From Acidobacteriaceae bacterium KBS 146 (GTDB lineage: Bacteria > Acidobacteriota > Terriglobia > Terriglobales > Acidobacteriaceae), in the NCBI GenBank assembly GCA_000688615.1, contig JHVA01000001.1, positions 3,348,001-3,412,000 of the forward strand: 64,000 nt of DNA. The letters run 5' to 3'. The notes beneath the pieces were generated by a model, which did no database searches, had not been told where the DNA came from, and saw nothing but the letters and a program-made list of their open reading frames with translations. Below are positions 27,036 to 64,000 of this stretch, piece by piece. Within the stretch, counting starts at the first letter, position 1. The number at the start of each line of letters is the position of its first letter. A program made the translations under genes and the position numbers.

Positions 27036-27130
27036 ACCTGCCGGGCGCCCCATTCGTGCAGCTTCCTCGCATAAATCAGCGGTTCGAGCAAAGCTCGAAC
27101 CGCTGATTTATGGGTAACGGCTTCAGCTAT
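27036..27130. repeat. Dispersed repeat B, copy 6, with perfect 20-bp inverted repeat
   Basis: CATAAATCAGCGGTTCGAGC (27070-27089) and its exact reverse complement (27093-27112) are separated by AAA. The usual GGCGCCCCATTC start and a GGCTTCAGC remnant flank it. It overlaps the stop of the omega-like gene and could act as its terminator. Confidence 0.85.
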
Positions 27131-60648: not shown

Positions 60649-61461
60649 ATGACAACCAAAGGAAAAGTCTTAGTGCTGGTCTCGAGCGGTCGTGGCTTGC
60701 CCTTGAAAGATGGCAAGGTTTACAGCGGCGCAGGCTACTACCTCAACGAGCTCACGGTTCCTGTTCGTGCCCTGATGAGTGAGGGCTACGAAATCACGTT
60801 CGCGAATCCCAAAGGCAACACGCCCCAGATGGATGTCCATTCGGCTGTAGCCGACTTCTTCGGTGGAGACGAGGCGAAGCTTCAGGACTATCTAAAGTTC
60901 CGTGACACCCTGACGGGGCTCAAAAATCCATCCCGTATCTCGGATGTCATCGCATCGGGTCTGGATCAATATGACGCTGTTTTCGTCCCGGGCGGCCATG
61001 GCCCGATGATGGACCTGCTTGATGATCCCGACGCTGGCACCGTGCTGAGACACTTTCATGAAACATCCAAGCCTACGGCGGTGCTTTGCCATGGTCCCAT
61101 TTCACTTCTCTCGGCGCTTCCAAATTCGAAAGAGGTGGTCGCGGCGCTGTCGGCGGGCGATGTCGCTGGAGCACACGCAAAGGCTCAAGGCTGGATCTAC
61201 GCCGGGTATAAGATGACTATTTTTTCGACAGCGGAAGAGCAGCAGCGCGAGCCGCTTGAGATTAATGGCAAGGTTCTCTTCTACCCGGACTTCGCGTTGA
61301 GTACGGCGGGCGGTAACGTAAGTGTGCTCGCTCCATGGACGAGCTACGTCGTTCATGATCGCGAGCTGATCTCGGGCCAGAACCCCTTTTCTGATCAAGC
61401 GCTTCTGAAACTTCTTTTGCCTGCACTCGATGCGAAGAAGAAGTCGGTTTCAGCGGCATAG
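60649..61461 (+). CDS. DJ-1/PfpI-family protein (Hsp31-like glyoxalase/chaperone)
   Basis: A 270-residue class I glutamine-amidotransferase-like protein. The nucleophile elbow is AVLCHGPISLL with the reactive cysteine, and upstream GHGPMMDLL lies in the FVPGGHGP loop. A glutamate in LNELTVPV and the C-terminal GGNVSVLAPW complete the pattern. It is longer than DJ-1 (about 190) and resembles Hsp31-type proteins, which convert methylglyoxal to lactate or act as holding chaperones. AAAGAGGAG lies close to the ATG. It begins a carbonyl-stress-like pair with the VOC protein that follows. Confidence 0.88.
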   Translation: MTTKGKVLVLVSSGRGLPLKDGKVYSGAGYYLNELTVPVRALMSEGYEITFANPKGNTPQMDVHSAVADFFGGDEAKLQDYLKFRDTLTGLKNPSRISDVIASGLDQYDAVFVPGGHGPMMDLLDDPDAGTVLRHFHETSKPTAVLCHGPISLLSALPNSKEVVAALSAGDVAGAHAKAQGWIYAGYKMTIFSTAEEQQREPLEINGKVLFYPDFALSTAGGNVSVLAPWTSYVVHDRELISGQNPFSDQALLKLLLPALDAKKKSVSAA

Positions 61462-61621
61462 GAATCGGAGACGCCCAGAAGAGGTAATTGAGAGAGGGAC
61501 GACAGTCTTCGAGGGCGTAACTATCGATGGAAACCACCTTCGGTGTTTTTGCTGATACCGCCGAAAATCAGGCAAGTGTGGCCACCCAGAGGAGCACCGT
61601 TCATCGGAAATGGAGTCGTCA

Positions 61622-62068
61622 ATGAGCAGCGTACAAGTCGATCAGAAGAGCTATGAGATGCCCCCGAAGGAGGGGATGAGCATCGCGCATTTTCTAACCG
61701 TGGGCGACATCAACAGATCGCTCGACTACTACGAGAAGGTCTTCGGCGCTCGCATTCTGAGCAGAGGCGACGGCAACGCGCCCGGGTACCTTCAGCTTGC
61801 AAATATCTGGATGATTCTGAACGTAGGGGGCGGGCCAACCCCGGATAAGCCGACGGTAACGCTCAGCGTCCCCGACCCGAATCACATCAACAGCTTTATG
61901 AACTTCCGCGTTGCGGATATTCAAGCGTGCTACAAATTATGGAAAAGTCGAGGGGCGGACTTCATCACGGAGCCGATCCCCAAGTACGGCGAGACGCGCT
62001 GCTACATCCGCGATCCTGACGGATATATTATCGAGGTCGGACAGAGCACCGACCAGACGTACGGTTGA
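61622..62068 (+). CDS. VOC-superfamily protein
   Basis: A 148-residue VOC-domain protein: SIAHFLTVGDINRSLDYYEKVFGARILSRGDGN, a central IWMILNVGGGPTPDKPTVTLSVPD, and CYIRDPDGYIIEVGQST at the end, the paired VOC halves with metal-site histidine and glutamates. The second VOC protein in the window (cf. 48184). The start at 61622 has GGAG six bases upstream. It follows the DJ-1 gene by 160 bp; a shared role in aldehyde detoxification is plausible but not shown. Confidence 0.87.
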   Translation: MSSVQVDQKSYEMPPKEGMSIAHFLTVGDINRSLDYYEKVFGARILSRGDGNAPGYLQLANIWMILNVGGGPTPDKPTVTLSVPDPNHINSFMNFRVADIQACYKLWKSRGADFITEPIPKYGETRCYIRDPDGYIIEVGQSTDQTYG

Positions 62069-62191
62069 CGCCCGCCCCGGGAAACCCAGACTTCTGCTGC
62101 GGCGCATTCTGCAAACGACTCAGTAACCAACCCTCCGTTCATTGTCATAAATTCTGGCGCGTATCCGAACTTTTTGGATTCGCCAACGTAT

Positions 62192-62223
62192 TTGACTCCT
62201 ATGGACATTGCAAAGGAGATAAT
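62192..62223 (+). promoter_or_regulatory. Candidate promoter of the PadR-ADOP operon
   Basis: TTGACT (62192-62197) and GATAAT (62218-62223) are separated by 20 bp, longer than the ideal 17. The -10-like hexamer lies in the loop of the inverted repeat, so a regulator bound to both arms would clash with RNA polymerase. Confidence 0.45.
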
Positions 62224-62250
62224 GGTATTCCTTTGCAATGTCCATAGGAG
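62196..62250. promoter_or_regulatory. Perfect 22-bp inverted repeat with the padR ribosome site in one arm
   Basis: The left arm (62196-62217) starts CTCCTATGGACATTGC and the right arm (62229-62250) is its exact reverse complement, with an 11-nt loop. AGGAG at 62246-62250 is the PadR Shine-Dalgarno site and lies in the right arm, six bases before the ATG. As DNA it is a likely PadR operator; as RNA it would sequester the ribosome site. Confidence 0.7.
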
Positions 62251-62256
62251 CGGCGC

Positions 62257-62601
62257 ATGCCCACAGATAAATCGGAAGTTCTACAAGGAACGCTGGATCT
62301 GATGATCCTCAAGACGCTGCACGCGCTGGGTCCCTTGCATGGCTTCGGCATCGCCCGGCGTATCGAGCAGTTGAGTGAAGACGTGCTCACGCTGAACGAA
62401 GGAACCGTCTACACCTCGCTCCTCCGCCTCCAGCAAAAGAACTGGATCGCCAGCGAATGGGGCCAGTCGGAGAACAACCGCCGCGCGCGGTTCTACAACA
62501 TCACCAGGCGCGGCTTGAAGCAGCTCGCACTGGAGACCGAAAACTGGGAACGGATCTCCGCCGTAATAAGCCGTGTCCTTGCTCTTGAAGTGAAGGCGTA
62601 G
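62257..62601 (+). CDS. PadR-family transcriptional regulator
   Basis: A 114-residue winged-helix regulator. It starts KSEVLQGTLDLMILKTLHALGPLHGFGIARRIEQLSEDVLTLNEGTVYTSLLRLQQKNWIASEWGQSENNRRARFYNITRRGLKQLA, the complete PadR wHTH with the GTVYTSLLRL recognition helix. It is the small PadR class without a long C-terminal dimerisation helix. In acidobacteria it commonly precedes ADOP permeases, as here with two bases between stop and next start. It probably represses this operon via the inverted repeat upstream. Confidence 0.93.
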   Translation: MPTDKSEVLQGTLDLMILKTLHALGPLHGFGIARRIEQLSEDVLTLNEGTVYTSLLRLQQKNWIASEWGQSENNRRARFYNITRRGLKQLALETENWERISAVISRVLALEVKA

Positions 62602-62603
62602 CC

Positions 62604-64000
62604 ATGACTGACCGCATACTCATCTTTTTCGCGAAGCTCAAAGCGGTCTTCGGTCAATCGAAGGACGACACTGCCTTCAGCGAAGAGGTCAATGCTCACC
62701 TCGATCTTTTGTCCGAACAGTTCGAGAGACAGGGAATGTCTCCGGCAGAAGCCACGCAGGCTGCGCGACGCCAGTTCGGAAATCTGACATTACTGACACA
62801 GCGAAGAAAGGAAGCCAGGACAACCATGTTCTTCTCCAACCTTGCCCGTGATCTGAAGTATGGCGTACGCCAGCTTGTAAAGACGCCCGTCTTCACCATC
62901 GTCTGTGTCCTCACTCTGGCGCTCGGTGTAGGAGCAAACACTGCGGTGTTCAGCGTGATGCATGCCGTCCTGATGAAAATGCTGCCCGTGCACGATGCGT
63001 CGAAGGTCGTCTATGTACATACCACTGGTTTTCCCGCTGGTGCACACAATACGGGCGACGAGGCTACCTCATTTTCTTACGCCACATATCGCGAACTGCG
63101 CGAGCACAGCGGCCTCGAGGAGGTCATCGGCTTCATTCCGATGTCCTCAAGCGGAAAGGCGCCTGTGCGGGTTGGTACTGCCCCGGAAGAAGCAGCAGGA
63201 GACATGGTCAGCGGCAACTACTTCAGCGGCCTGGGCGTCGGTGTCGAGCTGGGTCGAGGATTCGTACAGAAGGACGAAGACGATCACGCAGCAACCACAG
63301 TAATCAGCGAGAACTTCTGGACGACCCACTATTCCCGCAACCCGAACGTAATCGGGAAGACGCTCTTCATCAAGTCACACCCCTTCACGATCGTCGGTGT
63401 CGCAGCAAAAAGGTTCGAAGGAACCGAAGGCCGTCTTCCACTGGACTTCTGGATTCCCCTTCAAAGCCACCCCGACTTCAATGCCTGGGGAAACCCAGCG
63501 GAGGACGGCACCTATCTGACGATCCCTCAGTTCTGGTGCATGCGCCTGATGGCTCGCATCCCGGCGGGAGTAAGCACTGATCAGGCACTGGCAAAAGCGC
63601 AGGGCATCTTCCAGCAGGCTGCCTATCTCGGCATCGCGCAAAAGCGCGCGGGCGAAAGAATCCCACAGCTTTCGTTCCTCCCCGCAAAACAGTTCGACAG
63701 TCAGGACGACACCTTCGCGCGCTCGCTCAAGACGCTGATGGCCATGGTCGGCCTCGTGCTCCTGATTGCGATATGCAACGTCGTGATGCTGCTGATGTCC
63801 CGCAACGCGAACCGACAAAGAGAGTTCAGCATTCGATTGGCGTTAGGCGCAGGACGCAGGGTGATCGCAAGACAGCTACTGACCGAAAGCTTTCTGCTTG
63901 TCTCACTCGGAGGAGCGGCAGCATGGATCTTCGCCTTGGCAGCAACACGCGCTCTCGGCGCATGGGCACGAATCGACTCCAACCTTCAGCCTGACTCGGT
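62604..64000 (+). CDS. ADOP/MacB-like ABC transporter permease (5' part, runs off window)
   Basis: The first 465 codons of a MacB/FtsX-type permease. The N-terminal extension (SKDDTAFSEEVNAHLDLLSEQFERQGMSPAEATQAARRQFGNL) is the DUF found on acidobacterial duplicated orphan permeases. It is followed by a first transmembrane helix (VFTIVCVLTLALGVGANTAVFSVMHAVL), a MacB periplasmic domain, and the FtsX helices (LMAMVGLVLLIAICNVVMLLMSRNANRQREFSIRLALGAG, then LLVSLGGAAAWIFALA). No stop is reached, and the second half lies beyond 64000. No ATPase is adjacent, as is usual for 'orphan' permeases. Confidence 0.9.
   Translation, partial: MTDRILIFFAKLKAVFGQSKDDTAFSEEVNAHLDLLSEQFERQGMSPAEATQAARRQFGNLTLLTQRRKEARTTMFFSNLARDLKYGVRQLVKTPVFTIVCVLTLALGVGANTAVFSVMHAVLMKMLPVHDASKVVYVHTTGFPAGAHNTGDEATSFSYATYRELREHSGLEEVIGFIPMSSSGKAPVRVGTAPEEAAGDMVSGNYFSGLGVGVELGRGFVQKDEDDHAATTVISENFWTTHYSRNPNVIGKTLFIKSHPFTIVGVAAKRFEGTEGRLPLDFWIPLQSHPDFNAWGNPAEDGTYLTIPQFWCMRLMARIPAGVSTDQALAKAQGIFQQAAYLGIAQKRAGERIPQLSFLPAKQFDSQDDTFARSLKTLMAMVGLVLLIAICNVVMLLMSRNANRQREFSIRLALGAGRRVIARQLLTESFLLVSLGGAAAWIFALAATRALGAWARIDSNLQPDS

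Follow-up and report, generated by a model that had tools for sequence, protein, structure and literature searches.

A perfect inverted repeat upstream of an acidobacterial padR-ADOP gene pair as a probable pair of PadR operators

A padR gene of Acidobacteriaceae bacterium KBS 146 is preceded by a long inverted repeat, the right arm of which contains the ribosome site of the gene. Such an element could act as an operator in the DNA, as a hairpin in the mRNA, or as both, and the original prediction, made from the sequence of the locus, had proposed both functions. To which of them does the repeat owe its form? We analysed the element within a 64,000-nucleotide stretch of the genome (contig JHVA01000001.1, positions 3,348,001 to 3,412,000; hereafter the window) and compared it with the leaders of padR genes in the same genome, the family and the phylum.

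Two dyads in front of padR

The left arm of the repeat, CTCCTATGGACATTGCAAAGGA, occupies positions 62196-62217, and its exact reverse complement follows at 62229-62250 after a loop of 11 nt. The arms are complementary at 22/22 positions, as originally described; by chance, about 1.4e-7 repeats of this kind (arm of at least 22, loop of 3-40, equal base frequencies) would be expected per 64 kb. The Shine-Dalgarno sequence AGGAG was also found within the right arm, at 62246-62250, ahead of the padR ATG at 62257. ATGG/CCAT and ACAT/ATGT half-sites are present in the element, in agreement with the original prediction. The canonical PadR box ATGT-N8-ACAT was ruled out: it is absent from the element, which has one ACAT and one ATGT in the order ACAT...ATGT.

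Extended by one base, each arm is itself a 23-bp quasi-palindrome, with 8/11 symmetric pairs around 62207 on the left and 7/11 around 62239 on the right. The element therefore consists of two dyads in opposite orientation, with centres 32 bp apart, and not only of one large dyad. The features of the locus are as follows (bits for the two sites refer to the operator matrix of the next section).

62196..62218, no strand: left (distal) candidate PadR operator, 23-bp quasi-palindrome CTCCTATGGACATTGCAAAGGAG, centre 62207, 22.9 bits
62202..62207, plus strand: probable -35, TGGACA, within the left operator
62218..62223, plus strand: GATAAT, the -10 of the original prediction (5/6 matches to TATAAT), judged not to be the conserved promoter element
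62223..62231, plus strand: probable extended -10, TG-G-TATTCC, 18 nt past the -35 and between the two operators
62228..62250, no strand: right (proximal) candidate PadR operator, TTCCTTTGCAATGTCCATAGGAG, centre 62239, inverted relative to the left site, 22.4 bits
62237..62238, plus strand: putative transcription start, within the right operator, about 7 nt past the -10
62246..62250, plus strand: Shine-Dalgarno AGGAG, at the outer edge of the right operator
62257..62601, plus strand: padR, 114 aa, padR_acidobact family (Pfam PF03551, 64.1 bits)
62604..63998, plus strand: ADOP-type duplicated permease with MacB_PCD and FtsX domains, cut by the window end

PadR scored 137.9 bits with TIGR03433, above the curated cut-off of 101.8. 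The ADOP gene scored 331.5 bits with TIGR03434 over model positions 1-352 of 803, the whole-protein cut-off being 622.3 and the gene being cut by the window end. The AlphaFold model of PadR (pLDDT 88.5) has helices at residues 10-24, 29-39, 48-60 and 84-109 and strands at 64-70 and 76-82; this predicted structure corresponds to the PadR-s2 fold, with a winged helix-turn-helix, a beta-wing and a C-terminal helix. In a fold search of the PDB, LmrR and other PadR structures were its best matches. Upstream, on the same strand, lie a DJ-1/PfpI (HchA-like) gene (60649-61461) and a glyoxalase-family gene (61610-62068).

Long and perfect inverted repeats frequently prove to be terminators or transposon ends, and the window contains another at 27070-27112, with 20-bp arms, a 3-nt loop and a terminator-like form. 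The idea that the padR element is likewise a mobile-element remnant, a terminator or some other structural palindrome unrelated to PadR can nevertheless be practically dismissed. Apart from the two arm copies, the 21-base pattern of the arm (all except the first base) has no match in the 5.0-Mb genome at up to 3 mismatches, and a repeated mobile element was ruled out on this ground. A terminator was ruled out as well, the stem being followed by no T-run and none being called in 61900-62400. Moreover, two sites stand at the same place before padR in the orthologs of other species.

Paired sites in padR leaders and the recognition helix

ADOP permeases and PadR regulators are multiplied in the genomes of Acidobacteriota. 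The genome analysed has 22 PadR loci, 17 of them with an ADOP-like gene downstream, and many of the paralog leaders share the layout of the window's element with other sequences. In one of them (L002) the repeat is again perfect, with 22-bp arms and an 11-nt loop, and differs in sequence from that of the window; four others (L006, L010, L014, L016) have imperfect inverted repeats, and in three (L005, L007, L011) the copies are direct repeats. The direct-repeat leaders keep the spacing (32 in L005 and L156, 30 in L007). Judged by eye, L007 apparently has three direct copies of an operator-like site.

The first leader set comprised 159 distinct leaders from 164 loci (21 from the same genome, 109 from the family and 29 from the phylum), one locus without a tblastn match (L022) and four duplicates having been left out. 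Searched for pairs of good dyads with no motif model, these leaders showed a peak at 33-34 bp, with 19 and 13 leaders at the two spacings against 0.3 and 0.1 in shuffles. A palindromic matrix trained on them converged on yTCCTnTkG-n5-CmAnAGGAr. A held-out scan (5-fold, all spacings allowed), with random folds that placed near relatives in both training and test sets, found two sites in 108/159 leaders and in 0/159 with the reversed control. By origin, these were 8/21 from the same genome, 86/109 from the family and 14/29 from the phylum; the spacing was usually 32-34 bp, with a peak at 33-34. Over the 64-kb window, the matrix found ten sites above 6 bits, including both arm sites, and 62207/62239 was the sole above-threshold pair 29-37 bp apart.

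A second set contained 62 leaders of 64 loci (L228, a 21-residue match, and L195, for which no start was found, were left out; 3/62 duplicate the first set), the closest members coming from Edaphobacter, Granulicella and Terriglobus. An ADOP-like gene follows in 60/62, and two sites were found in 39/62 against 0/62 with the reversed control. A model-free repeat test (spacings 18-45) gave a similar picture: 154/218 leaders reached 15/21, where 6.0 were expected from shuffles, with a peak at 32-33. In the same genome this level was reached at some spacing by 13/17 ADOP-linked PadR leaders and by 0/4 testable PadR leaders without ADOP.

The paired sites vary in sequence from locus to locus. Between any two of the 8 two-site leaders of the same genome, even the most similar sites show 3-11 differences in 23 bases. 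These comparisons suggest that many padR-transporter pairs in the phylum share the layout, each with a private site sequence. Two matrix sites were lacking in 51/159 leaders (13/21 in the same genome) and in 23/62 of the second set; some of these leaders may contain a different type of site or have a wrongly placed start. A class with two-turn spacing (22-25) contains few leaders and is too small to claim. A degenerate operator pattern was also tried as a regulon finder and rejected as too loose, with 65 places in the genome against 52 for the reversed pattern; unlike this plain pattern scan, the matrix pair test was specific.

Two further observations concern the range of the layout. In eight leaders (L003, L004, L152, L157, L158, L160, L161 and L163) the repeat reaches or overlaps the start codon, which suggests leaderless transcripts at these loci. 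In three loci labelled Opitutaceae, Didemnitutus or Verrucomicrobia (L199, L204 and L206), padR and an ADOP-like gene are preceded by one or more operator sites of the type described here, with two matrix sites in L199 only; either horizontal transfer or mis-binned MAGs would account for them.

For the analyses below, the two-site leaders were merged into one set of 139 (103/159 and 36/59). Employing 138 of these, we tabulated PadR residues against operator bases. At half-site position 4, the majority base was G in 55/56 leaders with T53 or A53 and in 10/82 with P53. Position 6 was mostly G with Q48 (56/77) and A with Y48 (21/23); with E48 it was T in 25 and A in 7 of 34 leaders. A first covariation ranking was obscured, probably by effects of clade and by columns of almost no variation; these probably account also for high scores of columns L9, D14, R57 and W63. 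A test on tree-independent pairs took its place, on a tree from which columns 46-62 (the recognition helix) had been omitted. The pairs agreed in 9/9 cases for Q48-G6, 4/4 for E48-T6, 5/5 for residue 53 (not P)-G4 and 1/1 for Y48-A6. Residue 54 alone was weaker, with 5 for, 1 against and 2 ties.

The contrasts at Q48, E48, Y48 and residue 53 had been chosen after the data were seen, and 3025 residue-base combinations were tested afterwards (covering residues that occur in 8 or more sequences and are absent from 8 or more, at half-site positions 2, 4, 6 and 7 only). Q48-G6 came first by p-value (0.002), and residue 53-G4 came first by effect among tests with at least 4 informative pairs; the top p-values would fail a Bonferroni correction over 3025 tests, and the strength of the association lies in rank, effect size and location. 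Residues 48 and 53 both fall in alpha3 (48-60) of the predicted fold. Compared with the rest, all alpha3 columns together had a borderline mean covariation (p 0.052). The recurrence of the operator in padR leaders of the family and the phylum, together with bases that track residues of the recognition helix, argues for the predicted role of the element as a DNA operator for PadR.

Promoter, ribosome site and pairing of the arms

For the finer comparison we assembled a group of 37 orthologous leaders, 13 at 70% identity or more (including the window, and L033 and L034 at 72%) and 24 from the second set at 74% or more. Only leaders with both sites were admitted: the 32 second-set loci at this identity comprised 27 with both sites (3 of them duplicates), 4 without and 1 with no start.

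Across the 139 two-site leaders, TTGACA-like bases lie at -5..0 of the left centre, with a mean of 4.3/6 matches compared to 3.0 at the equivalent positions of the right site, and the best mean match to TATAAT is at +18 of the left centre. TGnTA occurs at +14..+18 in 32/37 orthologous leaders; the window's own -10 has just 3/6 matches to TATAAT. The extended -10 is not general, because TGn(T/C)A was found in only 34 of the other 102 two-site leaders. A sigma-70 scan at the element found no promoter. The TAAT-type -10 predicted in the loop does exist as GATAAT, but it is not conserved: among the 37 orthologous leaders, window included, only the window has 5/6 TATAAT matches at this position, and GATAAT was set aside as the promoter. 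AGGAG-like bases (at least 4/5) occupy +7..+11 of the right site in 115/139 leaders. Probably, then, the -35 is part of the left operator, and the right operator contains the ribosome site and would also contain the transcription start. With the probable -35 in the left site and the probable extended -10 following it ahead of the right site, transcripts would be expected to begin in the right site and to lack the left arm.

This arrangement bears directly on the other predicted function, in which the arms would pair in the padR transcript, hide the Shine-Dalgarno sequence and place translation under the control of RNA structure. The RNA of 62192-62262 does fold strongly (-42.9 kcal/mol, z -10.1 against 200 shuffles). 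Folding was extended to 130/139 leaders; in the other 9, over 40 nt separate the right centre from the start codon. In a transcript that spans the entire element, the Shine-Dalgarno sequence would be mostly paired, with a mean unpaired value of 0.21 and values below 0.3 in 91/130 leaders. Any promoter within the element, however, leaves the left arm untranscribed, and in the predicted transcript the Shine-Dalgarno sequence is mostly open (mean 0.55; below 0.3 in 16/130).

In the orthologs, inter-arm pairing ranged from 14 to 22 of 23 positions and reached 22 in the window only; the other orthologous leaders keep the two sites with imperfect arms (14-21 of 23). Over the 37 leaders it was kept at 642/851 cells and exceeded within-arm pairing (544/814), in favour of a hairpin, but pairing of both arms also arises when one protein binds both of them. 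Among inter-arm mismatches G-U exceeded A-C by 63 to 37. The same excess was found within the arms (49 to 20), where it cannot reflect an inter-arm hairpin; over 105 leaders the difference (146 to 127) was not significant (p 0.28). In one ortholog (L026) the predicted fold consists of two small hairpins within the arms, and the direct-repeat leaders are unable to form the inter-arm hairpin at all. Covariation with the recognition helix would be unexpected for an RNA element. A known RNA family was ruled out, since a scan of 61900-62700 against Rfam gave no match at the gathering score (four microRNA matches had 20.4-23.6 bits, where 74-90 are needed). With the left arm untranscribed from a promoter inside the element, with direct-repeat leaders and with inter-arm pairing partly lost in orthologs, masking of the Shine-Dalgarno sequence as the main function is unsupported and highly improbable.

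What does speak for a hairpin is the orientation of the copies. Inverted order outnumbered direct order by 70 to 29 with 6 ties (105 of 159 leaders), by 103 to 47 with 4 ties in the model-free test, by 29 to 6 with 2 ties in the orthologs and by 14 to 5 (p 0.06) when 19 cluster representatives were counted. Because inverted order is commoner and inter-arm pairing exceeds within-arm pairing, two independent dyads leave part of the symmetry unexplained. Inner and outer half-sites differ systematically, and the 55-bp element has a symmetry of its own, which we tentatively read as a contact between two dimers or as the trace of an inverted duplication. In the PadR class of the window, as defined by residues 48/53/54, the outer half-site has TGG and the inner mostly TGC; in the Y48 class the outer has mostly TTG and the inner mostly TGG, again a second-level symmetry of the element.

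The favoured inverted order would also fit a combination in which PadR binds the DNA pair and, in read-through RNA from the glyoxalase-family gene, the full hairpin shuts off translation of padR. No terminator-like site was found in 61900-62400, and the full-length RNA sequesters the Shine-Dalgarno sequence in the 91/130 leaders mentioned above. We consider this combination unlikely: read-through from the glyoxalase gene is hypothetical, direct-repeat leaders manage without a hairpin, and the preference for inverted order is also explicable by symmetric dimer contacts or inverted duplication.

The proposed circuit and known PadR systems

Very probably, judging from the comparison of leaders and proteins, the element is an operator pair for the PadR encoded directly downstream, at which two dimers would autorepress padR-ADOP. 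Each arm would bind one PadR dimer, and the site centres, 32 bp apart, would be separated by about three helical turns. With the -35 in the left site, the -10 between the sites and the transcription start and Shine-Dalgarno sequence in the right site, two bound dimers, possibly in cooperation, would block RNA polymerase, and expression of padR and the ADOP permease gene would stay low. Release of PadR from the DNA, presumably upon binding of a small molecule, would end the repression. The 22-bp perfect hairpin would result because two nearly symmetric copies of the site stand in opposite orientation, and it is most likely a by-product of the paired operators.

A broader reading is offered tentatively, as a possibility that we would not yet rely upon. 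Acidobacteriota may possess sets of parallel padR-ADOP circuits, insulated from one another by private operator pairs whose bases would be dictated by a short recognition code in helix 3 of PadR, with dimers that meet symmetrically across the -10, and with inner and outer half-sites that differ systematically. The code would pair Q48 with G6, Y48 with A6 and E48 with T6 or A6; P53 would go mostly with T4, and T53 or A53 with G4.

In the literature covered, outside which most subscription papers and preprints fell, we found no description of the control of ADOP permeases and their PadR regulators or of the operators of the acidobacterial padR-ADOP family; the available parts of PMC3174227 and PMC5900883 do not treat these operators. 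The element provides a concrete, predictable operator for many padR-ADOP pairs and a testable protein-DNA code, which would permit operator prediction for uncharacterised PadR proteins. It also raises the question of how some 17 similar repressors per cell avoid one another's promoters, and illustrates that a spectacular DNA hairpin can arise as a by-product of paired operators.

Among families already named, the locus falls under TIGR03433 (padR_acidobact) and TIGR03434 (ADOP), with padR as a family member and an ADOP-type permease next to it. Among characterised regulators, and as far as the parts of the reports available to us extend, it is comparable with three. LmrR is a small, autoregulated PadR repressor beside the transporter genes that it controls, with two dimers per operator (PMC5428041). 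The window's small PadR likewise stands beside a transporter gene and matches LmrR and other PadR structures in sequence and predicted fold. The two dimers of LmrR bind one 33-bp operator fragment, whereas two separate 23-bp sites are found here, and ATGT-N8-ACAT, a form of the PadR box ATGT-N8/10-ACAT (PMC5428041; boxes of the ATGT/ACAT type also in PMC4534193 and PMC4517056), is absent. For bcPadR1 of Bacillus cereus, an alpha3 motif EGT(L/I)YPxLxRLE has been reported (PMC3506622); aligned by eye, residues 48 and 53 here correspond to its E and P. Unlike what the available text describes for bcPadR1, the operator here is not the same in all paralogs, and it changes with residues 48 and 53.

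The closest layout is that of cdPadR1 of Clostridium difficile R20291. Two boxes, each an inverted repeat TACT-N11/12-AGTA, lie 25 and 52 bp ahead of its ORF, the more distant one covering the predicted -35/-10; both are reported to be sequence-specific sites, consistent with autoregulation, and about 200 further regions of the genome are reported to contain the motif (PMC5050560). In both systems two dyads precede the regulator's own gene and one covers the promoter, which is putative here, as is the binding. By the reported positions, the cdPadR1 boxes are about 27 bp apart, compared to mostly 32-34 bp here, and the box sequence differs. The cdPadR1 motif recurs in some 200 further regions, whereas the window's site is unique in its genome. 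Here, the Shine-Dalgarno sequence is shared with the right site; the available text of PMC5050560 does not mention such sharing. Double boxes before a padR gene are thus already known from cdPadR1, and the layout in the window is a variant of that arrangement.
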